49,995 bases of DNA from Fischerella muscicola PCC 7414 (lineage in GTDB: Bacteria > Cyanobacteriota > Cyanobacteriia > Cyanobacteriales > Nostocaceae): contig NZ_AJLK01000153.1 in NCBI RefSeq assembly GCF_000317205.1, forward strand, positions 1 through 49,995. The letters are read 5' to 3'. Below are positions 37,129 to 49,211 of the stretch, piece by piece (position 1 is the stretch's first letter; every line of letters starts with the position of its first letter). Both the position numbers and the translations under genes were made by a program. The notes under the pieces are model-generated. The model made no database searches, was not told the origin of the DNA, and saw only the letters and a list, made by a program, of their open reading frames with translations.

Positions 37129-38259
37129 TTATTCATCTAGTAAAACATTTTTATCTCTCATTAACCAACGCAGAAATAATTCAAAATACAGAAGTTTGTT
37201 CTGCAAGCCTTCTCTCACCCTAATTTGGTAAAAAGTATTTTGCATAAATCTATGAGAATCAGTATTTCTAGTTAATAGTTGCTGACATATACTTGAAGAG
37301 AGGGAAACAACTTCTGGGTCAGCTTCTATGGCTTGTAAAACCTCATTTGGTAGAGTAATGCCTATAATGTTATAAGTTAAGAAAAGACCAATAAAAACCA
37401 TTCGCCTACAATCAAACTCGCTAGCTTGTTGAATTAACATTTGCCAATTAATTTCTGGATTCCGTCCGATTAATTCTGCAATATCAGCCAACCAACTCAG
37501 TTTTTCCCAACGATGTCGAGATGCGTGTGTACTCAGTAATAGTAACCAATTTTCTGGTGAGAAACTATAGATTTCCATGCCACCAAAGCTAGATGATAGA
37601 AGATGTTTCCAAATATACTTGACTTCTATTGAAGATGTGTATCGGGGTGTAATTCGCCAATGAACCTCCAGCATTATTCGCTTGCTATCATGAATAAAGT
37701 TATAAGTATGCTTACTTTTGTCTTTTAGGTAAGCGGCTTCTTCTGTTTTTGTTAATTCAATTTTTGGTCTATATCCTTGAGAAATTAGTAAATCTTTAAA
37801 TTTTAAAACATCTTGTGGTTGTACTAATATATCTAAATCGCAGAACTGGCGCAGTGCGATATTTCCATATAATAAGTTTGCTAAAACAGGACCTTTATAA
37901 GGAACAGCCAAAATTCCATTTTCTTGCAATAGGCGTAGGAGTTGTACAAGTTCCCCGGTCAATTGTAAACTGCGTTGAGCATTTGTGTAGAAAAGCTTGC
38001 GAAGTTGCTCGAGAACATCTTGAGGAACAGTATCTGATGCGATCGCATTTATATTAGTATACAAAAGTGGTATCAAACCATGTTTCCATGCACTACTGGT
38101 GATCTCTTGCCAGTCTAAATCTGTTCGTTGAACCAAACTTTTTATTTGTTCGGTTTTGGCAGCATCTATTTTAGTAGAAGCACAACAAAGAAGTAGCTGC
38201 ATTTCAGGACGAACATTGACATTTAAAATCTTGGTATTTAACTTTGCTAGAGTTTGCAT
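37129..38259 (-). CDS. Nucleotidyltransferase-like tailoring protein of the lasso operon
   Basis: 376 aa. The block YKGPVLANLLYG ... LRQFCDLDILV (about 121-146) matches the NTP_transf_5 family (uncharacterised nucleotidyltransferases), with D141 and D143 as the metal-binding pair; a later ML-EVHWRI strand gives a further acidic residue. Such proteins accompany HPr-kinase-like proteins in the K-type lasso clusters of firmicutes (paeninodin type), where they are thought to act on the phosphorylated peptide. It begins 46 nt after the ABC transporter on the same strand and is the last gene of the operon. Its substrate here is unknown. Confidence 0.82.
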   Translation of the reverse strand: MQTLAKLNTKILNVNVRPEMQLLLCCASTKIDAAKTEQIKSLVQRTDLDWQEITSSAWKHGLIPLLYTNINAIASDTVPQDVLEQLRKLFYTNAQRSLQLTGELVQLLRLLQENGILAVPYKGPVLANLLYGNIALRQFCDLDILVQPQDVLKFKDLLISQGYRPKIELTKTEEAAYLKDKSKHTYNFIHDSKRIMLEVHWRITPRYTSSIEVKYIWKHLLSSSFGGMEIYSFSPENWLLLLSTHASRHRWEKLSWLADIAELIGRNPEINWQMLIQQASEFDCRRMVFIGLFLTYNIIGITLPNEVLQAIEADPEVVSLSSSICQQLLTRNTDSHRFMQNTFYQIRVREGLQNKLLYFELFLRWLMRDKNVLLDE

Positions 38260-38305
38260 TTGTTTTCTTCACTTTTTAGAAGTCTATGATTTATCGCCCT
38301 TCTGC

Positions 38306-40168
38306 CTAAGCAATCCCATTTTTAACTTTCTGACTTGGAGTGGACTCCATTTGTGCTTTCCAAGACTCAGCATAAAGTCCACCCAAAGCTAATAATTCGC
38401 CATGATTTCCTGACTCTACAATCCGACCAGCACGCATTACGTGAATTATGTCTGCTTGCATAGCAAGAGTGAAACGGTGAGTAATCACAACAGCAGTACG
38501 ACCTTCTGCTAGGGTACGGAAACGTTCTAACCAATCGTATTCAGCCCAGGGATCCATAGCACTTGTTGGTTCATCTAAAATAATGATTTGAGCGCGTCTA
38601 AAAAATGCTCGTGCTAGCGCTAAACGCTGCCACTGACCCCCACTTAAATCGGTTCCATCAGGAAACAATTTACCCAGCATCGTGTTGTAACCCAAAGGTA
38701 AGCGCATAATTTTATCGTGAATACCAGATGCTTTAGCTGCCGATTCAATCTCTGCCTGGTTTGATTGTGCTGTGATATCTCCCAAAGCAATATTGTCACC
38801 TGCTGTGGTGTAGTAGGGAATTGGAGATTGGAACAAAACAGTAATTAATCTACGGAATTCTTTGACAGCAAAGTCACGCAAGTCTATGCCATCTAATTCA
38901 ATCCTTCCCGAATCTGGATCATAAAAGCGACACAAAAGCTTAATTAGCGTACTTTTGCCTGCGCCATTGTCACCAACGATCGCTACAACTTTACCAGCTG
39001 GAATCGTCAAGTTAAAATTCTCTAATACAGCTTCTGTAGCACCAGGGTAGCGGAAAGTAACCTGTCGAAATCGAATTTCTTTCTGAGGTTTTATAGGTAC
39101 AGTAACTGGATTTTCTGGGTCTACTATTTTGGGCTGGATTTGTAAAAACTCAAATAAGTTACCAACAAATAAGCTATTACGATAAATTTTTCCAATATTA
39201 CTTAATGATTCTTTAACAATACTTTGCCCCTGATTAAATACCTGAAAAAATAGAGCTAAATCTCCTAATGTTAGAATACCTAATAATACTTGCCGCCCCA
39301 TCCAAGCTAGGGCCCCGCCAGTAATTGTCAGTGCAATGATGGCAGCAACAAAGCGACCTAAAGTTTGCAGTTTTAATAAATGGAATTGTTCTTTCATAAG
39401 TCGCCGGCGCAGAATCTGATAAGAAGACTGGAAATGATTAGCAAAGTCAAATAATCGTACTTCTGCGGCTGTGGAACTGTTTGTTAGCAGATAGTCATAA
39501 TACATCAGCCAGCGACGGTCAGTTGTTGTCCGCTGTGACCATTGATATTGAATTTTGCTGAGATACATTAATACGTAGAACGCAGGAAAAGCACTGATAA
39601 TTAAAATTGTCGGTAGCCAAAGACCATAAGGAATTAAGATTGTTGCCATCGCAAACAATGTGACACTGTTTTGCAGCAAACTACCAATGCTTTCTAATAA
39701 TGCTAGCGATCGCCCACTTGCTCCTTCTCGGGCGCGATTAAGTTTGTCATTATATTCTGAATATTCATAAAAACCATAATCTACTGCCACTGACTGGTTA
39801 TGAATCAAAGCTGTGATATGGTCATTTACTAATTCTGATTGAGCAGTGCGAATCCATTCACCAGAACTATTTAAAAACTCTCCCAACAGCATGATACCCG
39901 CCATCAATGCTACTGGAATCAAAATCTTCTGAACGCTTGCCGCAGAGATACCATGTCCGGCAACTACTACTAAATTATCAACTACCTGACGAGTGAAAGT
40001 AATGGAAATAGCTGGAAGTAATCCTTGCACTAATAACATTACCATCCAAGCTAAAGTCCAGTAGTGAGAGGCCGCCCAGACAAGACTTAGAGTTTTACGT
40101 AAATGACCTAGTATAGTGTTTGCACTACGAAATTTGCTCTTCAAGATATCAATACCCTGTGAATTCAA
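38306..40168 (-). CDS. Lasso-peptide ABC transporter (D protein)
   Basis: 620 aa fused exporter. Six membrane helices (about 36-310) precede a nucleotide-binding domain with Walker A G399-DNGAGKS-406, signature LSGGQWQRLALARA (508-521) and Walker B IIILDEPTSAMD (528-539). There is no N-terminal C39 peptidase domain, so leader removal must come from B2. The likely start is a TTG at 40168 overlapping the TGA of the kinase gene; the next in-frame Met would remove the first membrane helix. In lasso clusters the D protein exports the mature peptide and confers self-protection. Confidence 0.88.
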   Translation of the reverse strand: MNSQGIDILKSKFRSANTILGHLRKTLSLVWAASHYWTLAWMVMLLVQGLLPAISITFTRQVVDNLVVVAGHGISAASVQKILIPVALMAGIMLLGEFLNSSGEWIRTAQSELVNDHITALIHNQSVAVDYGFYEYSEYNDKLNRAREGASGRSLALLESIGSLLQNSVTLFAMATILIPYGLWLPTILIISAFPAFYVLMYLSKIQYQWSQRTTTDRRWLMYYDYLLTNSSTAAEVRLFDFANHFQSSYQILRRRLMKEQFHLLKLQTLGRFVAAIIALTITGGALAWMGRQVLLGILTLGDLALFFQVFNQGQSIVKESLSNIGKIYRNSLFVGNLFEFLQIQPKIVDPENPVTVPIKPQKEIRFRQVTFRYPGATEAVLENFNLTIPAGKVVAIVGDNGAGKSTLIKLLCRFYDPDSGRIELDGIDLRDFAVKEFRRLITVLFQSPIPYYTTAGDNIALGDITAQSNQAEIESAAKASGIHDKIMRLPLGYNTMLGKLFPDGTDLSGGQWQRLALARAFFRRAQIIILDEPTSAMDPWAEYDWLERFRTLAEGRTAVVITHRFTLAMQADIIHVMRAGRIVESGNHGELLALGGLYAESWKAQMESTPSQKVKNGIA

Positions 40169-41103
40169 GATTTGGTAGCTAACGAATAATCAGAGGAAGT
40201 TTTAAGACTATTAGTATTACTACTATCATGTTGTGCTGTCAGCAGGGCAATATCATCCTCAACTAACTTCACTAAATTTGGTAAATCTTCCAAGGAAGGT
40301 TTGCGAGTAAAACGACAGAAACTCACACTTTTAATTAACTCGCTACAAAGACGTAAATGGCTAGCAATGAATTCTTTTTCTGTTAGTAAATTAATAGCAC
40401 GAGTATGACGTACCAATTCTACAAATGCTGCTTGGGGTAACATTTTGGTAATCAAATGTTCACTTCCTTTATCTAAAACGTAAATCCGTTGTAGCGGGAG
40501 CGGAGTTTGCTGAAAACCATGAGCAAATTTGTAGGATAGTTTTGATGCATTTTGGTAAATTGGCGATAAATTTTTGGTCTCGTGTCCTAAAGAAATTAAA
40601 GCTTCTGGAAACACTTTAAATTGAGGATAAGCAGGTAATACCAACACTTGCCCTGCTGTAATTTCGATGGGCATAACATCATCAGTTAAAACATTGTAGC
40701 CTTTTTGATGAAAAGCGGCTGCCAAAGTAGACTTGCCCCATCCAGAACCACCCATAAATGCCACACATTTGTGATTGATGCGAATACAACTAGCATGTAG
40801 AACTAACAAGCCCCTTTGTCGCAGAAGTACACACAACATGGGGCCTAAAAGTACAGTGCGAAGCAAAGCTTCATCCACGTTCGGTAAAGGATTGATAACG
40901 ATTTCCCGTCCGTCTTGAATAAAACACTTACCTACTTCTGGTATTTCTCCAACGAAATTTTTACCGCCATCATGTTGTATTGCAGTTACATCATCTATTT
41001 TGCCAAACCGCACAATTACATCTGGCTCACCTTCAGTTTCAATCAGTTCGGGAAGTGTAAATTCAGAAGCAATGCACAAGTTATAGACTTTGAAAAATTT
41101 CAT
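40165..41103 (-). CDS. HPr-kinase-like peptide kinase (lasso K protein)
   Basis: About 312 aa from the ATG at 41103; a TTG at 41121 is an alternative. HPr kinase/phosphatase-type P-loop G118-GSGWGKST-126 follows LHASCIRINHKCVAF, and LTDDVMPIE gives the acidic pair downstream. It lacks the N-terminal domain of true HPr kinases. Homologues in paeninodin-type lasso clusters phosphorylate a Ser at the precursor C-terminus. The two precursors here end in Lys, so the target must differ (see findings). The stop overlaps the transporter start by 3 nt, and it follows the precursor genes after a 340-nt gap. Confidence 0.85.
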   Translation of the reverse strand: MKFFKVYNLCIASEFTLPELIETEGEPDVIVRFGKIDDVTAIQHDGGKNFVGEIPEVGKCFIQDGREIVINPLPNVDEALLRTVLLGPMLCVLLRQRGLLVLHASCIRINHKCVAFMGGSGWGKSTLAAAFHQKGYNVLTDDVMPIEITAGQVLVLPAYPQFKVFPEALISLGHETKNLSPIYQNASKLSYKFAHGFQQTPLPLQRIYVLDKGSEHLITKMLPQAAFVELVRHTRAINLLTEKEFIASHLRLCSELIKSVSFCRFTRKPSLEDLPNLVKLVEDDIALLTAQHDSSNTNSLKTSSDYSLATKS

Positions 41104-41196
41104 TGGTTTTATCGAATGCAATCATAAAAGAGATTTAATACAAACTTACCAAGCATATGTATCTGAGCAATTACACTCCTAGATAATAAAGATGTA

Positions 41197-41265
41197 GTAG
41201 GTTGAAGTTAACGGTATTCAAACCCAATCAAAAATGGTTGGGTTTTGCAACCTCAACCAACCTAC
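41197..41265. repeat. Small palindromic repeat between precursor A1 and kinase gene
   Basis: GTAGGTTG (41197-41204) and CAACCTAC (41258-41265) enclose a second stem AACCCAA / TTGGGTT (41221-41227 and 41238-41244). This GTAGGTTG ... AACCCAACC palindrome type is widespread in Nostoc-like genomes. It sits between precursor A1 and the kinase gene, where it could attenuate transcription and raise the precursor-to-enzyme mRNA ratio. The rest of this gap (41104-41460) shows no gene. Confidence 0.6.
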
Positions 41266-41460
41266 AAAATTGTGCTTTTTCCTAAAAAGGAAAAAATTTG
41301 CTCTCAGTGAGCTATCTATTAACTGCAACAGCAAAAATTATGTTTTTCTACATTAGTTCAGCTTAATTGCTTAACAAGAAAAACCAAATTTGATGTTATT
41401 TGCGCCTGCATTTGCTCAAATAGTTTTTACTGCTTGATTTCCAAGATTTTGCTGGTAAAA

Positions 41461-41655
41461 CTACTTGACTTTGCAATTTAATCGATTGCCATTGCTAGTG
41501 CAGTTTATATCTCGCGAACCGATATCATCACCGCCAGATATAGAATTGCCATTGAAAAAGAGAAAATCTATCCTGCTGGAACTACCAAGAATTTGTGTAA
41601 TTTCAGCAACATCACCGTAAACGGTTAGTTTAGGAACGCTGTACGCTTTCTTCAT
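41461..41655 (-). CDS. Lasso-type precursor peptide A1
   Basis: 64 aa from the ATG at 41655 (AGGAG 7 nt upstream); an ATG one codon earlier and a longer frame to 41781 are less likely. The leader shows Y5-x2-P8-x-L10-x3-G14-x5-T20, the lasso leader signature bound by B1-type proteins. Predicted core from I22 on: ILGSSSRID with D30 as the possible macrolactam acceptor, then FLFFNG, Asp/Gly-rich sequence, GSRD and a tail with C52 and C61. At about 43 residues this core is roughly double known lasso cores. It lies downstream of precursor A2, same strand, with B1, B2, C upstream and K, D downstream. Alternatively the ring starts at G24, giving seven residues to D30. Confidence 0.85.
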   Translation of the reverse strand: MKKAYSVPKLTVYGDVAEITQILGSSSRIDFLFFNGNSISGGDDIGSRDINCTSNGNRLNCKVK

Positions 41656-41658
41656 CAT

Positions 41659-42004
41659 GTGTCTCCTAATTTGTGAGTGTAGATAGTTTTTGCTACAAGT
41701 AAAAGGTAGTGCCCCAGACTTGGACTTACGGTGTAGCTTAGTGGTCATAGAACTGTCGTATCTATAACCACAACCTGCCAAGAGGTTGGATTTACGGTAT
41801 TGTCGAGAGCGATATGTACCATAATCCCTAAGCTACAACCTGCCAAGAAGTAGAACTTAATATGATCACCTGCTTCTACAAGAAGTAAAACTTAGAGCAT
41901 CACCTGCTTGTAGAAGTAATCAGCTTTTTGTTAGCTGTGCCTGTCTTAATTCAGGCGGTGATAATCAAGATTTGAATGAATCAGTGGCCTAGTTAGCTCA
42001 AACT
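41659..42004. other. Spacer between the two precursor genes with short repeats
   Basis: ACCTGC followed by variants of CAAGAGGTTGGATTTA recurs at 41773, 41838, 41868 and 41902, plus TTGGACTTAC at 41720 and TTGGATTTAC at 41785. The array lies upstream (in minus-strand sense) of precursor A1. I see no third precursor frame here. Confidence 0.5.
41720..41729 (-). promoter_or_regulatory. GTAAGTCCAA box upstream of precursor A1
   Basis: On the minus strand this reads GTAAGTCCAA, 65 nt before the A1 start. A near-identical box (GTAAATCCAA) lies 63 nt before the A2 start, and another at 41785. Role unknown: operator, promoter element or RNA motif. Confidence 0.4.
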
Positions 42005-42202
42005 CTACTTCTGTACAGGATGAATGATCCCGTCTATAGATCCTTGAGCAGGTGTACCACCGTCATCTGTTCCATCTGTATCTGGAATGTTTGAACCGTT
42101 AAAAAACAGAAAATCAGTCAATTGTTTGTTACCAAATGCCTGTGTGATATCTTCGACACTACCGTGTGCAATCAGCATTGGCGTACTATACGTTTTCTTC
42201 AT
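42005..42202 (-). CDS. Lasso-type precursor peptide A2
   Basis: 65 aa with AGGAG 8 nt before the ATG. It has the leader signature Y5-x2-P8-x-L10-x3-G14-x5-T20. Predicted core from A22: AFGNKQLTD, with D30 at exactly the position of D30 in A1, followed by the shared FLFFNG block, a region rich in Asp, Gly and Thr, GSID, and a tail IIHPVQK. No Cys. Core about 44 residues. It is 126 nt downstream of the cyclase gene and 350 nt upstream of A1. The two leaders and the D-FLFFNG block are clearly related, while the tails differ, so these are two distinct products of one machinery. Confidence 0.87.
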   Translation of the reverse strand: MKKTYSTPMLIAHGSVEDITQAFGNKQLTDFLFFNGSNIPDTDGTDDGGTPAQGSIDGIIHPVQK

Positions 42203-42264
42203 CGCTGTAACTCCTTTGATTTTTAGCTAATTTTCTTCAAACTTGTGGTGATACACCCAACTAA

Positions 42265-42309
42265 TTGGATTTACAGTGGCTATAATGTTAAAAGTGCTTG
42301 TAAATCCAA
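42265..42309 (-). promoter_or_regulatory. Inverted repeat upstream of precursor A2
   Basis: TTGGATTTACA (42265-42275) and TGTAAATCCAA (42299-42309) are perfect 11-nt inverted repeats with a 23-nt loop, between the cyclase stop and the A2 start. On the minus strand the loop contains TTATAG, 18 nt after TTGGAT, which could be a promoter for the precursor genes. The arms carry the box shared with the A1 leader region. Confidence 0.5.
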
Positions 42310-42328
42310 GTTTGCTAAGTTTTGAAAA

Positions 42329-44356
42329 TTACGGTGTCAATCCTTTAAAGTCCAGCCATGATGCTAAGATGACTGCCTGCCAAACTGCCATCCAATCATC
42401 GTTGCTAGCTTGGTTTTCTGCGGAAAGTATGCGTTGATAGGCTGTTTGCAAGAAATCTAAGTTAATGTATTTCTCCAGGTTTTTCATTTTTTGGGACATC
42501 ACCTGATCGAGAATTTGGCGATCGCGGTTGAGCAACCCATTGTTAAAGTTTGGTGACAAGTCTGCTTTTCCACCACGCCACTGAATGCTTTCTGGAAGGA
42601 TACCCTCTAAAGCACGACGCATGATCATCCGTCCCCATCCTTGATATAGTTTTTGTTCAGAAGGCAATGCTAAACAGAATTCTACGAGTCGCTTATCCAT
42701 GAAAGGATGACGAACTTCCAAAGAAAACATTGCTGCATATTGATCCATCTGTTCTAGGGTGTAGGCTAGTATTCCTTGAGTTAAACTACGCCAATGCTCC
42801 TGTCTTAAAGTCAGGGGCGCTTCCTGTGGAGGGTCTAACGTTTGTATCCGTTCATCCAGACGAATACGTTTTGCAAAGTTACGATTAACTAAAGGAGTCT
42901 TAGGCAAAGACGAAGCCGGAGATATTTTTTGTCTGTGTTGTCCCCTCCAAAATAGTCGTATTTGTTCCCACAAAGGTTTAATTCCGTGGTAGATAATTAA
43001 CAACTTCCGGGAAACACCAAAATGTTTATGAATCAACTGTACGGCTTTAACGAACTCTATCCATTGCCACTTCTTGACCAAATCCTGGAGATATGGTAAT
43101 CCATGACTTCTAAAAACTACGTATGGTGAAACATTGTGATGTGCCGCAATGGCTTTAGCTTCCTGGATGAGAGTTTTCCACTTACCTTGACGTCCTAATT
43201 CAGTGAGTCTAGCTATCCCGTGGCTAACCGTGGTATCGCCATCAAAGCCATCTAGGGAAATCCGCATTCCCAGTTCTTTGGCAGCGCGATAAATCATCCA
43301 AGGATAGAAATGACTTGGACCCAATAAAGCCTCATCTTCATACTGAAAAATACTATCTAGATTAGACAAAGGGCCAAACTCATCACCATGAATGTAGTGG
43401 GGAATGAATCCTCCCTGTTCTAGTACAGCATTGATAAAAGGGCGCTCATCACATTCAGTAACTTTATCAAAAATACTTGAGATGGTGTGCAATGGAGTTT
43501 GTCCTGCTTCCGCAAGCAGATTCCGTGCTACACAAGTCACAGCAGAAGAATCCAAGCCACCACTCAGTTGGCTGATCATGGGAAAGGCGGTACGCAAGCG
43601 ACACTTTACAGCTTCTGTGAAGATCTGCCGAAATTCTTGAGCATAAGCTTCATTATCAGCTAAATGAATTTCATGCTCAGGGTCAAGTGACCAGTAAGAC
43701 CATAGTTGTATTCCTGATTGACTGACCACCATACTATGAGCCGGAGGAAGTCGCAGAATATTTTTATAGGTGGTGATCTTTTGATCTTCCATCATCAATG
43801 CCAAGTAGTCGCCAATCCTAACTTCATTGAGGCGACGTGGCACGTGTGGTAAACACAGAAGTGCTTTAATTTCTGAAGCAAATATGAATTCTTGATTTGG
43901 TTGATGGTAGTAGTAAAAAGGCTTAACTCCAAAATGGTCTCTAGCACAGAAGAGTGTTTCCTTTTTTCTATCCCAAATGGCAAAGGCAAAATCACCAAGT
44001 AGATGCTCTGAACATAGCTCTCCCCATTTTTGATAAGCAGCTAATATTAGTTGAGTGTCCGTTATTTTTTCGACTGGACAATCATTTATTTGTAATATAG
44101 ATAATAATTCTTCTCGATTATCGATCCGAGCGTCGGATGTAATGACTAAATCACCTGTTTGATTAACTAGAGGTAACTTTTCTAGTAGAGATTCGGGGGT
44201 AGTCCACAGCATTCTATGGCCAAAACCCAGATTTCCATCATGCCAGATATCTGCACCATCAGGGCCACGGTGAGCTAGAGTATTTACCATCTTTTCTAAG
44301 TCTTGCTTGTCTACAGAACGTCCGTCAAGATAGTAAATTCCCATCATCCCACTCAT
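42329..44356 (-). CDS. Lasso cyclase, asparagine-synthetase-like (C protein)
   Basis: 675 aa from the ATG at 44356, which overlaps the B2 stop as ATGA and has AAGGAG 7 nt upstream; a longer frame inside B2 is rejected. The N-terminal glutaminase-like domain (about 1-210) starts MSGMMGIYYLDG: the catalytic Cys of AsnB (MCGI) is replaced by Met, so glutamine hydrolysis is not expected. The synthetase domain has the ATP-pyrophosphatase loop SGGLDSS (265-271). In lasso systems this enzyme adenylates the ring Asp/Glu side chain and closes the macrolactam onto the core N-terminus. Position after B1-B2 and before two precursors supports this over asparagine synthesis. Confidence 0.92.
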   Translation of the reverse strand: MSGMMGIYYLDGRSVDKQDLEKMVNTLAHRGPDGADIWHDGNLGFGHRMLWTTPESLLEKLPLVNQTGDLVITSDARIDNREELLSILQINDCPVEKITDTQLILAAYQKWGELCSEHLLGDFAFAIWDRKKETLFCARDHFGVKPFYYYHQPNQEFIFASEIKALLCLPHVPRRLNEVRIGDYLALMMEDQKITTYKNILRLPPAHSMVVSQSGIQLWSYWSLDPEHEIHLADNEAYAQEFRQIFTEAVKCRLRTAFPMISQLSGGLDSSAVTCVARNLLAEAGQTPLHTISSIFDKVTECDERPFINAVLEQGGFIPHYIHGDEFGPLSNLDSIFQYEDEALLGPSHFYPWMIYRAAKELGMRISLDGFDGDTTVSHGIARLTELGRQGKWKTLIQEAKAIAAHHNVSPYVVFRSHGLPYLQDLVKKWQWIEFVKAVQLIHKHFGVSRKLLIIYHGIKPLWEQIRLFWRGQHRQKISPASSLPKTPLVNRNFAKRIRLDERIQTLDPPQEAPLTLRQEHWRSLTQGILAYTLEQMDQYAAMFSLEVRHPFMDKRLVEFCLALPSEQKLYQGWGRMIMRRALEGILPESIQWRGGKADLSPNFNNGLLNRDRQILDQVMSQKMKNLEKYINLDFLQTAYQRILSAENQASNDDWMAVWQAVILASWLDFKGLTP

Positions 44357-44793
44357 AACTTGACTCCTTCTAGCGTTGGCAGGGGAATGAAGCGAGAAAG
44401 GTCTGTGAGATTCCCAATCACAATCTTTCCCTGATGTTCTATCCAAGCATGAGCCTCTAGGATTCCTTTGTTGTCTTTAGCGACACCGATACGGAGTTGA
44501 CAAGGGTGACAATGCCGATTCATCAGGACTTGCGTAGTCAAGGCACGGGCTAAGCACTTGACACCAGGCATATAACGACTAGCTACCTCTACGGCCCAGA
44601 CAATCTTGTGGATGGATACTTGGTTTGTAGTTTGTGTGCTGACTGGTTGACTGATTTTTGCTAACAGTTTTAAAAGAGTGCGAAACGGCAGTAACCACAA
44701 CCCCAGGCGCATAGCTGCCAGTAAAATCAAGGTCATGATTAATAAGTGGCGATCGCCTGGATTAAAACTCAAAAATTTAAACAGTAGCGTCAT
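44353..44793 (-). CDS. Lasso leader peptidase, transglutaminase-like (B2 protein)
   Basis: 146 aa. Transglutaminase-like cysteine protease with C80 in GVKCLARAL, H115 in EAHAWIE and D131 in LTD: an intact Cys-His-Asp triad. A hydrophobic N-terminal stretch (about 17-38) may attach it to the membrane. B2 proteins cut the leader after the conserved Thr-x pair while B1 holds the leader. It overlaps B1 by 17 nt and the cyclase by 4 nt, so the three enzymes are translationally coupled. Confidence 0.92.
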   Translation of the reverse strand: MTLLFKFLSFNPGDRHLLIMTLILLAAMRLGLWLLPFRTLLKLLAKISQPVSTQTTNQVSIHKIVWAVEVASRYMPGVKCLARALTTQVLMNRHCHPCQLRIGVAKDNKGILEAHAWIEHQGKIVIGNLTDLSRFIPLPTLEGVKL

Positions 44794-45088
44794 TTTGAAT
44801 ATTTATTAGTTCCGCAGCTAGAAGGTCTTCAAGTAATTTGAGCAAATCGCGATCGCACTGTTCGGCTTCGACCTCGTACTCTGCCAAGATAGCTGCTTTT
44901 ATATCCTTGACAGTTTTGGGTGTTTGAATCAAATTCCAGATCAATGTTCCTACTTCATTCAAACCATGATATGTACCAGATTTAAGATTGAGAATTACTG
45001 CTTCACCTCCCAAATCAGAGGAAATTTGCTCAACAGACGCCACAACAATTGTATTTTCTGAGATTTTAACTTCTACTGCTTTTGACAT
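44777..45088 (-). CDS. PqqD-like RiPP recognition element (lasso B1 protein)
   Basis: 103 aa. The beta strands and winged-helix pattern of PqqD-type proteins are visible: LGGEAVILNLKSGTYHGLNEVG then TLIWNLIQTPKTVKDI and a C-terminal helix LLKLLEDLLAAELI. B1 binds the leader (Tyr, Pro and Leu of the YxxPxL motif) and presents it to B2. AAGGAAA lies about 11 nt upstream of the ATG. It is the first gene of the operon. Confidence 0.92.
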   Translation of the reverse strand: MSKAVEVKISENTIVVASVEQISSDLGGEAVILNLKSGTYHGLNEVGTLIWNLIQTPKTVKDIKAAILAEYEVEAEQCDRDLLKLLEDLLAAELINIQNDATV

Positions 45089-45639: not shown

Positions 45640-45966
45640 TTAAGTTTCTTCCACTATTGCTTGATTAAGCAAAGCTATCCACATGTCTGATGGTTCTGAG
45701 TAGTAATCAATCTGCTCAACTTGATATCTATAAGAGCGACTATCATCTTCTAAAATAATCCAGTCACCACGCTTGACACCTTTACACTGCGCGGTCATAT
45801 AACCTTTTTTTAAACCTTCTATAGGCTCAAATATATAGTCGCGCCCATAAATCAATCCCCGAAAGTCGTGTATTTTATGTTTTTGGAACGTTGGTATAGT
45901 AAAAATGAATTGCGCGACTAACTCATAAATAACACTAATGCTAATCCCTGACCTACTAAAAGGCAT
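45640..45966 (-). CDS. Small hypothetical protein
   Basis: 108 aa. A short hydrophobic N-terminus (ISISVIYELVAQFIFTI) is followed by a soluble, aromatic-rich part with RGDWIILEDDSRSYRYQVEQIDYY, which reads like a small beta-rich domain. Composition is protein-like and the frame uses typical codons, but the ribosome site is weak. It lies 550 nt upstream of B1 on the same strand and could be unrelated. I do not recognise the family. Confidence 0.5.
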   Translation of the reverse strand: MPFSRSGISISVIYELVAQFIFTIPTFQKHKIHDFRGLIYGRDYIFEPIEGLKKGYMTAQCKGVKRGDWIILEDDSRSYRYQVEQIDYYSEPSDMWIALLNQAIVEET

Positions 45967-46439: not shown

Positions 46440-46988
46440 TTAATTCAAAGAGTAAAACTAAAGTAGCCAGCCAAACATTATTGTTGGCTGCTGTCAAATT
46501 TATTTAACTGTAATTTTACCAAACTTGTGGTAGCGATCGCAATTTCGCAAAATCGCAAAATATAATGTGCGGTAGTTGGTAATAGGCAACAGCGCCCATT
46601 ACTCATCACCGTCAAGTGCTATCACACGCTTGATGGGAGTACCCGGAGGTATAGATGGCAGGATGCACGTATAAAAAATCTATATACAGCTTGATTAACT
46701 GTCTAAATTAAGCTACCAATCTACCTTACGTAATGTTACTGTATGTATAGTGCATCGCTCCAAATTAACGGGCATTTTCAAGACTTAATACAGGGTGACA
46801 ATGAATTGAAATGAGGAATTCAGTATTTAGAATTACCCCACAATTAAAGCTGGGAACCCCAGACAAAGAAAATAATTTTTTTGATCTATACATGATCAAA
46901 CTGCGGGCTTCTGCTTTTGACTTTATTAATTCTGAATTCTGAATATCCGATTATTTCGGTCAGTAATGTAGTTAAATTTACTAAGGCT
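46440..46988. other. Gene-free region upstream of the Wzc-type gene
   Basis: AT-rich, with one GCGATCGC near 46534 and inverted GAATTCAGTATTTAGAATTA / TAATTCTGAATTC segments (46814-46833 and about 46926-46938), a common Nostoc-type repeat, just before the start of the next gene. The promoter of that gene is probably here but cannot be pinned down. Confidence 0.4.
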
Positions 46989-49211
46989 ATGCTGAAATCA
47001 GAAAAATATCATCACCCGTTGTTAACAGCCAACTCTGCTCAATTAAACGATGCTGATGAAGGCGGATTAAATTTAGGTCAAGTGGGAGCAGCCCTTCGTC
47101 GACGAGCGCTATTAATAGCTGGTTTAACCGGCGTAGTAGCAACCGCAGGGGCATTAAAAGCAGAAACAGATCCACCAGTATACCAAGGCAGCTTTGAAAT
47201 TTTAACCAAACCTGTGACTGGTGAGGGTAAAGTTATAGCTAATGTTCCTCAAACTATAGGAGATGGCAAAGACGCGATCGCAGCTCCAGAAACCACCGAA
47301 GAAATCAAGACAACAATAAAAGTTTTACAAAGTCGTAGAATACTAGAGCCAGTCATCAAAAAGCTTCAGACTAAGTACCCAGAAATAGAATACGACTATG
47401 TAATTGAGAACTTAGAGATTGAGTCAAAACAGCGACACATTTTACAAGTTCAATATATCGATGCAGATCAGCAGCTAGTTACAGATTTGCTAAATAGTAT
47501 TAAAGATGCTTATTTGCAATATAGTTTGGCAGAACGCCGTAACGACGTAGAGCAGGCAATTGAATTTGTAGAAAAACAAAGAAAACCATTAGAACAACGA
47601 GTCAAAGACTGGCAAGAACGACTGCGAACAATCAGACAGAAGAATAATTTAGTCGAACCAGCCCAGAAAGCACAGGAAGTATCCAGTCATGTTGCTACAT
47701 TGACACAGCAGCAACTAGAAAATCGTGTGATGCTAGAACAAATGCGAGCCAAATATCAGGAGTTGCAAAAAGAGTTCTTGCAACAACCGGGTGCATTAGC
47801 TAGTAATTCACTACTCAGTGAGAACCCCCGCTACCAAAAAATTCTTGATCAACTTCAGCAAACAAATGCGGAAATTGCTCAAAGAGGATCTATATTCACT
47901 GAGGAAGAAGAAGGCATGGTACGCCTTTCTCAACAAAGAGACAGCATGATTTCGATGTTGGAGGAAGAAAGAGCGCGGGTGAACAGAGATTTTCAAAGCC
48001 GCATCCGGGAATTGGAAGCACGTGATCTGGCTATTAGTGAAAAAATAGATAATCTCAATGGTTATTTGCGAGCTTTAGCAGCAGTGAGTCGTGATTACGA
48101 TAACATTCAGCGAGAATTAAAAATTGCCACCGAAGGCTTAAGCCAATTTTCAGCCAAGCAACAAGCATTACAAATCGAGTATGCTCAAAGATTACAACCT
48201 TGGAGATTACTAGATCCTCAATTGACAAAAGTGAGTGAACCTGACGCCATCTCAGATAGCGCTAAGAGAAATTTAATATTGGGAGGAATGTTAGGTTTGT
48301 TAATGGGAGTAGGAGCAGCTCTAGTTGTTGATAAACTCAGCAATGTCTTCTATACTTCCAAAGAACTTAAGGAAACTATTGGATTGCCATTATTAGGAGT
48401 AGTTCCTTTAAGAAAAGAAATTGCCCTCTCCACAAATGCAGGTAACACTTCTAGTGGTTTGCAGCAAGCAGCTCGCGCTTCATTTTTTGAAGTATTTCGC
48501 TCTCTTTACACCAATATTCTGCTTTTAGGTTCTGATGCACCAATTCGTTCACTTGTGATCAGTTCCGCAGGACAAGGAGATGGAAAATCAACAGTTGCTG
48601 TACATTTAGCCTTGGCAGCAGCTGCAATGGGACACCGAGTTTTGCTTGTAGATGCAAATTTACGTTCTCCCAGCCTACACCAACGCGTAGGGTTAATGAA
48701 TATTCAGGGATTGACGGATGTTATTTCTTCTGACTTAGACTGGAGCAACGTGATTGAGCGATCGCCTCTAGAAGACAATCTCTATGTCCTCTCTGCTGGC
48801 CCTGTTCCCCCAGACTCAATTAGGTTGCTCGCGTCTCAGAAAATGCAGGACTTGATGCAGGACTTACATAGTAGTTTTGACTTAGTAATTTATGACACAC
48901 CACCTTTAGTTGGATTTGCTGATGCAACTTTATTGGCAGCTAACACCAATGGTATGGTACTAGTTGCTGGTTTAGGTAAGTTAAAGCGTACCGTCTTCCA
49001 ACAAGCATTAGAAGAGCTACAAATATCCGGCACACCTATCTTGGGATTGGTAGCTAATAAGTCCAGAGATGCCGTACCTGGTTCCTATACCTACTATCAG
49101 CAGTATTACAGGCAGAACATGAGCGTAGAACGTGTTGGTGATGATGATGACACAGACATCAGAAATAACTCTGTGCCCACATCTTCTTCTGTGAGGAAAA
49201 TTAAGGGATAG
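46989..49211 (+). CDS. Wzc-type polysaccharide co-polymerase / tyrosine autokinase
   Basis: 740 aa from the ATG at 46989 (AAGG just upstream); a TTG 72 nt earlier lies in the repeat-bearing leader and is less likely. A Wzz-type N-terminal part with a first membrane helix (about 40-58) leads into long coiled coils (about 180-420) in the periplasm, a second membrane helix (about 430-450), and a BY-kinase domain with Walker A SAGQGDGKST (near 525-533), Walker A' VLLVDANLRSP and Walker B FDLVIYDTPP (near 630). A C-terminal Tyr cluster SYTYYQQYY (about 699-706) is the autophosphorylation tail. Such proteins set polymer length and export in exopolysaccharide systems. It probably works with the glycan locus 10 kb away. 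Confidence 0.9.
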   Translation: MLKSEKYHHPLLTANSAQLNDADEGGLNLGQVGAALRRRALLIAGLTGVVATAGALKAETDPPVYQGSFEILTKPVTGEGKVIANVPQTIGDGKDAIAAPETTEEIKTTIKVLQSRRILEPVIKKLQTKYPEIEYDYVIENLEIESKQRHILQVQYIDADQQLVTDLLNSIKDAYLQYSLAERRNDVEQAIEFVEKQRKPLEQRVKDWQERLRTIRQKNNLVEPAQKAQEVSSHVATLTQQQLENRVMLEQMRAKYQELQKEFLQQPGALASNSLLSENPRYQKILDQLQQTNAEIAQRGSIFTEEEEGMVRLSQQRDSMISMLEEERARVNRDFQSRIRELEARDLAISEKIDNLNGYLRALAAVSRDYDNIQRELKIATEGLSQFSAKQQALQIEYAQRLQPWRLLDPQLTKVSEPDAISDSAKRNLILGGMLGLLMGVGAALVVDKLSNVFYTSKELKETIGLPLLGVVPLRKEIALSTNAGNTSSGLQQAARASFFEVFRSLYTNILLLGSDAPIRSLVISSAGQGDGKSTVAVHLALAAAAMGHRVLLVDANLRSPSLHQRVGLMNIQGLTDVISSDLDWSNVIERSPLEDNLYVLSAGPVPPDSIRLLASQKMQDLMQDLHSSFDLVIYDTPPLVGFADATLLAANTNGMVLVAGLGKLKRTVFQQALEELQISGTPILGLVANKSRDAVPGSYTYYQQYYRQNMSVERVGDDDDTDIRNNSVPTSSSVRKIKG

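Follow-up and report, generated by a model that had tools for sequence, protein, structure and literature searches.

A cyanobacterial lasso-peptide operon with an HprK-like kinase and candidate acceptor serines inside the precursor tails

In Fischerella muscicola PCC 7414, a stretch of 49,995 nucleotides (contig NZ_AJLK01000153.1, positions 1 to 49,995; hereafter the window) holds a lasso-peptide operon with the gene order B1-B2-C-A1-A2-K-D-N, intact at 37129-45088 on the minus strand, and we describe here its genes, its relatives and, above all, the tails of its two precursors A1 and A2. All eight reading frames are open and lie on the same strand, with short overlaps between B1 and B2 (17 nt) and between K and D (4 nt); the order is the one given by an earlier reading made from the letters alone (the sequence-only reading). 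According to alignments, comprising 19 sequences in the case of C, the most likely starts are 44356 for C and 41103 for K. The precursor leaders, YSTPMLIAHGSVEDIT and YSVPKLTVYGDVAEIT, follow the pattern YxxPxLxxxGxxxxxT that had already been put forward for them, and both precursors combine the YxxPx[L] leader with Thr at -2, from which the core boundary was inferred, and Asp at core position 9. Both end in Lys and carry the motif GS-x-D, at core 34 in A1 and core 26 in A2 (Table 1). The gap between A1 and A2 (41720-41916) contains short imperfect direct and inverted repeats only.

Table 1. Features of the lasso-peptide operon and its upstream neighbour, in window positions
Feature	Position	Strand	Basis
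B1, PqqD-like leader-binding protein (RRE), 103 aa	44777..45088	-	PF05402 1e-20
B2, leader peptidase, 146 aa, Cys80 and His115	44353..44793	-	NF033537 118 bits
C, lasso macrolactam cyclase, Ser replaces glutaminase Cys	42329..44356	-	NF033535, alignment, tree
A1 precursor, 65 aa, predicted core 44 residues, ring Ala1-Asp9	42005..42202	-	NF033528 72 bits
A1 core Ser34 in GSIDGII, proposed phosphate acceptor, then 10 residues	42038..42040	-	sequence, motif statistics
A2 precursor, 64 aa, predicted core 43 residues, ring Ile1-Asp9	41461..41655	-	NF033528 80 bits
A2 core Ser26 in GSRDINC, proposed phosphate acceptor, then 17 residues	41515..41517	-	sequence, motif statistics
A2 extension Cys31...Cys40, proposed disulfide	41473..41502	-	cysteine counts, kinase-tree changes
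K, HprK-like peptide kinase with H...GKS...DD	40165..41103	-	PDB matches, predicted fold, motif
D, ATP-binding cassette (ABC) exporter (MsbA-like), 620 aa	38306..40168	-	PF00005 3e-32
N, NTP_transf_5 protein with DLD motif	37129..38259	-	PF14907 2.4e-64; alignment
Small conserved protein upstream of B1	45640-45966	-	no Pfam or NCBIfam match

Family models support the assignment of the individual genes. B1 reaches 74 bits with PF05402 (cut-off 23.4) and 79 bits with NF033536 (lasso_PqqD_Bac), marginally below the cut-off of 80, while B2 matches Transglut_core3 (2.9e-23) and NF033537 (lasso_biosyn_B2, cut-off 33). The intact Cys-His-Asp triad claimed for B2 holds in part: Cys80 and His115 are invariant in all 15 aligned B2 proteins, but the residue aligned with D131 is Asp in only 9 of the 15. 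D matches ABC_tran, and TIGR02204 at 4.2e-82, below the cut-off of the latter, and in N the residues D141 and D143 are invariant in an alignment of 6. C matches Asn_synthase (9.4e-48) and scores 1107 bits with NF033535 (lass_lactam_cya, cut-off 525), and the cut-off of NF033528 (lasso_cyano) is 33, so that by curated score the precursors and the cyclase are members of these two NCBIfam families. Since they lie far above the curated cut-offs, the operon is of a known kind and, judged from its sequence, is a real and complete lasso operon of the curated cyanobacterial family. It should be noted that the NF033528 model has 35 positions and stops shortly past the ring, leaving the tail motif and the cysteine pair uncovered, and is silent on K, D and N.

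The separation of C from asparagine synthesis is seen in residues as well as in phylogeny. As the sequence-only reading had stated, C lacks the glutaminase Cys, its second residue being Ser in 19 of 19 aligned sequences; by a rough pattern, Cys occupies that position in 25 of the 45 rows lacking B1 and B2, compared with none of the 47 whose neighbourhood includes B1, B2 and K. A tree of 95 C-like proteins contains a branch, with a Shimodaira-Hasegawa-like approximate likelihood ratio (SH-aLRT) support of 100, that divides them into 36 rows with no B1/B2 in the neighbourhood and 59 others. Among these 59, the neighbourhood includes B1, B2 and K in 47 rows and B1 and B2 alone in 3, and the pair is missing in the remaining 9. 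The C of the window falls among the 47, adjoining Spirirestis, Scytonema and Calothrix; a grouping with non-lasso asparagine synthetases, which had been raised as the contrary case, was not seen in this tree, which was run for C. Curated scores and the tree of C thus both support the lasso assignment.

The classification as kinase/nucleotidyltransferase type is likewise supported at the gene level, but the set K-D-N, taken by the sequence-only reading for an uncharacterised variant in a cyanobacterium, turned out to be ordinary. In a phylum-wide sample of 386 genomes, with up to three candidates scored in each, 17 had a C above cut-off. A precursor above the curated cut-off is present in 63 of the 217 genomes from the window's family and in 26 of the 388 from its order. 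From these searches we compiled 19 regions around C genes, 80 around listed precursors (the precursor lists hold further, weaker places) and 80 named loci (80 of 582 matches). The collections overlap, and counts are given for distinct C genes scoring more than 750 bits with a profile of our own, 107 from the window's phylum and 3 from elsewhere. K accompanies all 110. For 89 of them the sequence extends 7.5 kb or more downstream, and of these 81 carry D, 51 carry N and 46 the complete K-D-N set. K and N accompany each of the three C genes from elsewhere (Rokuibacteriota, Rhodothermales, Rubrobacter), two of which have D as well. As this tailoring set is the norm among relatives, we rejected it as a novelty. 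Nor are two precursors special: among 75 clusters whose precursors carry an internal serine like A1 and A2 (internal-Ser clusters), 48 have one precursor, 15 two and 12 more, that is, at least two in 27. Both same-genus genomes found (G438 and G439) retain the whole operon with two precursors. The departure from the paeninodin type, missed by the sequence-only reading, is that neither precursor ends in Ser, and the novelty moves from the gene set to the precursor tail.

With the paeninodin and pseudomycoidin type (PadeK, ThcoK, SyanK, PsmK, PsmN) the window shares an HprK-like kinase with H-K-D-D, an NTP_transf_5 protein (a Pfam family, PF14907, to which we take PsmN to belong) and the split B1/B2. 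In characterised members of that type, the phosphate sits on a C-terminal Ser, whereas the window precursors end in Lys with the matching Ser 10 and 17 residues inside. We therefore compared the tails of relatives. Precursors were found by the leader pattern, so unusual ones are missed; after dropping 4 false ones from 170 candidates, the remaining 166 reduced to 108 non-redundant precursors at 70% core identity, 22 with short cores (<32 residues) and 86 with long cores. The length limit of 32, the wording of the motif, the HPr-like pattern and the label patterns of the kinase tree described below were chosen after viewing the data. Position 9 was taken as the site of the ring acid in 82 of the 108. 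A Ser stands at the C-terminus of 15 of 22 short cores but of only 8 of 86 long ones, while the motif [GDSN]S.[DN] occurs beyond position 12 in 70 of the 86 long cores; 1000 shuffles of each tail gave 18.1 on average and never more than 30. The narrower GS.[DN] is found in 62 of 86 (shuffle mean 7.1, maximum 17), and at 50% identity the broader motif persists in 36 of 46 (mean 8.7, maximum 18). In 69 of the 70, the motif Ser falls between core positions 23 and 40. It is followed by 4-28 residues, with D or N at +2 by definition and G or A at +3 in 37 of 70. From -8 to +17 around the ring acid, no column has Ser or Thr in more than 31 of 83.

At the HPr site, whose Ser is the one phosphorylated by HprK, four of five aligned HPr chains from the PDB read KSIMG[VI]M, and A1 reads GSIDGII. 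The pattern S[IVLM].G[VI][MVIL], picked after looking, occurs in 10 of 86 tails compared with a shuffle mean of 0.17 and a maximum of 2. K itself matches Hpr_kinase_C weakly (23.2 bits, beneath the cut-off of 33.3), but with a profile of 17 K relatives, solved HPr kinases rank first in the PDB, and the predicted structure of K, with a mean predicted local distance difference test score (pLDDT) of 86.7, matches the PEPCK/HPr-kinase fold, with PEPCK entries on top and HprK 3tqf and 1kkl from rank 32. H...GK[ST]...[DE]D is present in all 106 distinct kinases, with DD in 103; H-K-D-D is the catalytic residue set reported for lasso kinases in PMC9266682. In the window's genome, no further match to the HprK family model was found besides K, and the single HPr match sits within a long fused protein.

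In a tree of 105 kinases, from which the short kinase of L201 (225 aa) was left out, the internal-Ser kinases fall into one set of 77 rows with a support of 86, comprising 74 internal-Ser rows, 1 mixed and 2 without a precursor found. Outside this set lie all 18 kinases with Ser-ended precursors, 8 of neither type and 2 without precursor. For 7 of the 8 of neither type, the precursor has a Ser followed by one to six last residues (for example GSI, VSDA, TFSETPMRG), and in one cluster (L041) three paralogues end TFS, TFSGTF and TFSGTF.

As the best explanation we propose, with moderate confidence, a class II-type lasso operon in which K phosphorylates the internal Ser and the extension behind it is kept. 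What is observed are the genes and their families, the statistics on motif and cysteines, and the clade formed by the kinases; from these we infer every chemical step that follows. B1 would bind the YxxPxL leader of either precursor and pass it to B2, which would cut past the residue next to Thr(-2). C would then close the ring round the threaded tail by joining the freed amino group of residue 1 (Ala in A1, Ile in A2) to the Asp9 side chain, and K would phosphorylate the Ser of GS-x-D (A1 Ser34, A2 Ser26), the putative counterpart, by analogy, of the C-terminal Ser of the paeninodin type. N may next modify that phosphate, with a hexose as reported for PsmN. The extension past the Ser, 10 residues in A1 and 17 with a Cys pair in A2, would most likely be kept and its cysteines oxidised, and D would export the product. 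The monoisotopic neutral masses predicted for these lassos are 4586.199 Da for A1 (4666.165 Da with phosphate) and 4570.208 Da for A2 with its disulfide (4650.174 Da with phosphate). Stability makes lasso peptides valuable, and one way in which nature is known to decorate them is by tailoring the tail end. If the kinase accepts an internal serine, the rule of a C-terminal Ser for lasso kinases falls and a phosphate can be placed inside lasso tails; mining of long cores would then have to consider the tail.

Several observations weigh against this proposal. Sixteen of the 86 long cores lack the motif as written; several of these appear to hold near variants (GS..DG, GTINAC), a post hoc reading whose variants were also used in the labels of the kinase tree. 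The fifth HPr chain reads KSLFKLQ, unlike the tails, and the precursors that go with the L046 kinase, which falls outside the internal-Ser branch, have no Ser close to their ends. Since internal and C-terminal Ser part essentially once on the kinase tree, kinase and motif have not changed jointly on independent occasions. Furthermore, the acceptor site of such kinases moves, since LppK uses core Ser3 (PMC13381572) and PadeK a C-terminal Ser, the acceptor for characterised lasso kinases (PMC9266682).

Whether the extension is kept can be approached from the cysteines. Long cores contain none in 44 cases, two in 41 and one in a single case, whereas short cores have two in 2 of 22 and none in the rest. 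Of the 70 motif-bearing long cores, 35 lack Cys, 32 have both Cys after the Ser and 3 have one on each side; A2 has the pair and A1 has none. Across 67 internal-Ser clusters with one cysteine state, 10 changes between 0 and 2 are counted on the kinase tree. The plain reading of the paired cysteines is a putative disulfide within the extension. The sole long precursor with an odd cysteine count (L221:10779-11030, minus strand) has Cys in the place of the motif Ser (GLDGCPDGIL).

The strongest alternative is that the extension is a C-terminal follower removed after the Ser, so that the mature peptides would end in (phospho)Ser like paeninodin. The predicted masses of such trimmed forms are 3485.565 Da for A1 and 2656.277 Da for A2, or 3565.531 and 2736.243 Da with phosphate. 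Relatives with the same enzymes do end at Ser, as in the short cores counted above, whose Ser-ended members have lengths of 22-31, close to the positions of the motif Ser in long cores, and the extension is variable in length. Such trimming is, on the other hand, at odds with the 0 or 2 cysteines in 85 of 86 long cores, which suggest a folded, retained piece, and with the conservation of the residues just past the Ser. A conserved follower protease was considered as well and none was recognised by eye near the clusters: among 15 recurrent families of other open reading frames none had the look of a protease, a weak point, as the printed starts were judged by eye with no library search. We thus regard trimming as unlikely, though it is to be taken seriously. 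Keeping, favoured because of the paired cysteines and the conserved first residues, appears roughly twice as probable as trimming, which is favoured because relatives end at Ser.

In a second alternative, K phosphorylates another residue, for instance near the core N-terminus as LppK does (core Ser3, PMC13381572), and GS-x-D serves folding, cyclase recognition or export. The ring of A2 would offer Ser4-6, but that of A1 has no Ser (only Thr8), and no ring position has Ser in more than 22 of 83, the motif Ser being by far the commonest; we consider this improbable. That the operon is silent or decayed, or that K and N act elsewhere, for example on the neighbouring polysaccharide, is very improbable: the operon does lie within an exopolysaccharide locus and we know of no product of it, but the eight frames are open, K has its H-K-D-D, N its DLD and B2 two residues of the triad of three, G438 and G439 keep the whole operon with two precursors, and no C examined lacks a K, whether or not polysaccharide neighbours were recognised in the locus.

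Among known systems, linear polyphosphorylated peptides (LPP; PMC13381572) have an RRE, an HprK-like kinase, an NTP transferase and an MsbA-like exporter in common with the window, but they have a signal-peptidase-like SpI and no cyclase, where the window has B2 and C. Family scans of the eight operon proteins gave no match to a signal peptidase family. A cyanobacterial cluster of Cyanocohniella sp. LLY with B1, B2, C and a precursor conserved in Nostocales has been described from its genome (PMC9332814), the one account of a cyanobacterial lasso cluster in any detail that our literature search turned up. In its main text, the word 'nucleotidyltransferase' is absent and 'kinase' appears only for another cluster; a figure legend gives a cleaved peptide of 36 residues. 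The text of a 2026 review (PMC13352647) contains no word beginning 'cyanobacteri'. We found no literature on the kinase or the tail of these cyanobacterial precursors, nor a characterised product, which is weak evidence of absence as the search reached few subscription papers.

The operon is embedded in an exopolysaccharide locus (9533-36936 and 46917-49211) with glycosyltransferases, a pyruvyl transferase, a UDP-galactopyranose mutase, an acyltransferase, a GT61 protein and a Wzz/ParA-like protein; a further neighbour without Pfam match we read as a polymerase-like membrane protein. Of 72 internal-Ser loci, 41 have a polymerase-like or Wzz homologue at most 9.5 kb from K, compared with 3 of the 16 Ser-ended loci and 3 of the 11 others; within the window's genome the polymerase-like protein has a single match and the Wzz protein 14 matching stretches. 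According to PMC13381572, a group of lasso clusters of Bacilli lies in capsular polysaccharide loci. The association between lasso operon and polysaccharide is suggestive. Beyond the proposal above, and doubtful, is a picture of two-part molecules, in which the lasso would be followed by a tail with an internal Ser mimicking the HPr site of the ancestor of the kinase and carrying a phosphate or phosphosugar, and then by a second, often disulfide-closed loop, the frequent placement in exopolysaccharide loci reflecting attachment to, or transport with, the polysaccharide.

Among 99 loci, the small conserved protein upstream of B1 precedes the lasso genes in 31, including 30 of the 72 internal-Ser loci and 1 of the 16 Ser-ended ones. 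It is present in 43 of 60 genomes of the family, mostly once and including genomes without a precursor match. Of 14 regions around it elsewhere, 4 have polysaccharide neighbours without the operon (L271, L272, L274 and L275, from genomes without a precursor match) and 10 have neither, a pattern that would fit gain and loss of the operon at a single site. All 14 lack a match to the lasso proteins of the window, and we rejected the protein as an accessory of the operon.

Core position 1 among the 108 relatives is Ala in 32, Ile in 17, Val in 13, Gln in 10, Gly in 9, Phe in 9 and another residue in 18, a wider range than is known for characterised lasso peptides. In A2 the predicted core position 1 is Ile.

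Sixteen extra loci (14 non-cyanobacterial and 2 cyanobacterial outliers, some already counted) were examined for precursor ends, and 13 gave candidates. Ser-ended candidates come from Mesorhizobium (LTFS), a Spirochaete (GPS), Caldilineaceae (TGS), Rokuibacteriota (NAS) and Rubrobacter (AIS), and that of a methanogen (Methanobacteriaceae, L065) ends GES on the strand opposite C. Halosimplex candidates read GSVF and GSIF, two acidobacterial loci end TLM and TSV, one cyanobacterial outlier (L043) ends otherwise (GNL, LID, LLD), and the Rhodothermales candidate has the internal form NSINQC...C. Mesorhizobium (L071-L073) and cyanobacteria (L041, L055, L246) have like core ends, LTFS or VTFS after a similar middle, and this likeness across distant phyla suggests possible horizontal transfer.

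Eight loci (L187, L195, L201, L207, L210, L228, L231, L236) hold two tandem C genes, mostly each with its own kinase, and form double lasso clusters, L231 and L236 pairing an internal-Ser type with a Ser-ended type. Archaeal lasso-like clusters with homologues of B1, B2, C, K, D and N are found in Halosimplex salinum (L070) and in the Methanobacteriaceae locus L065.

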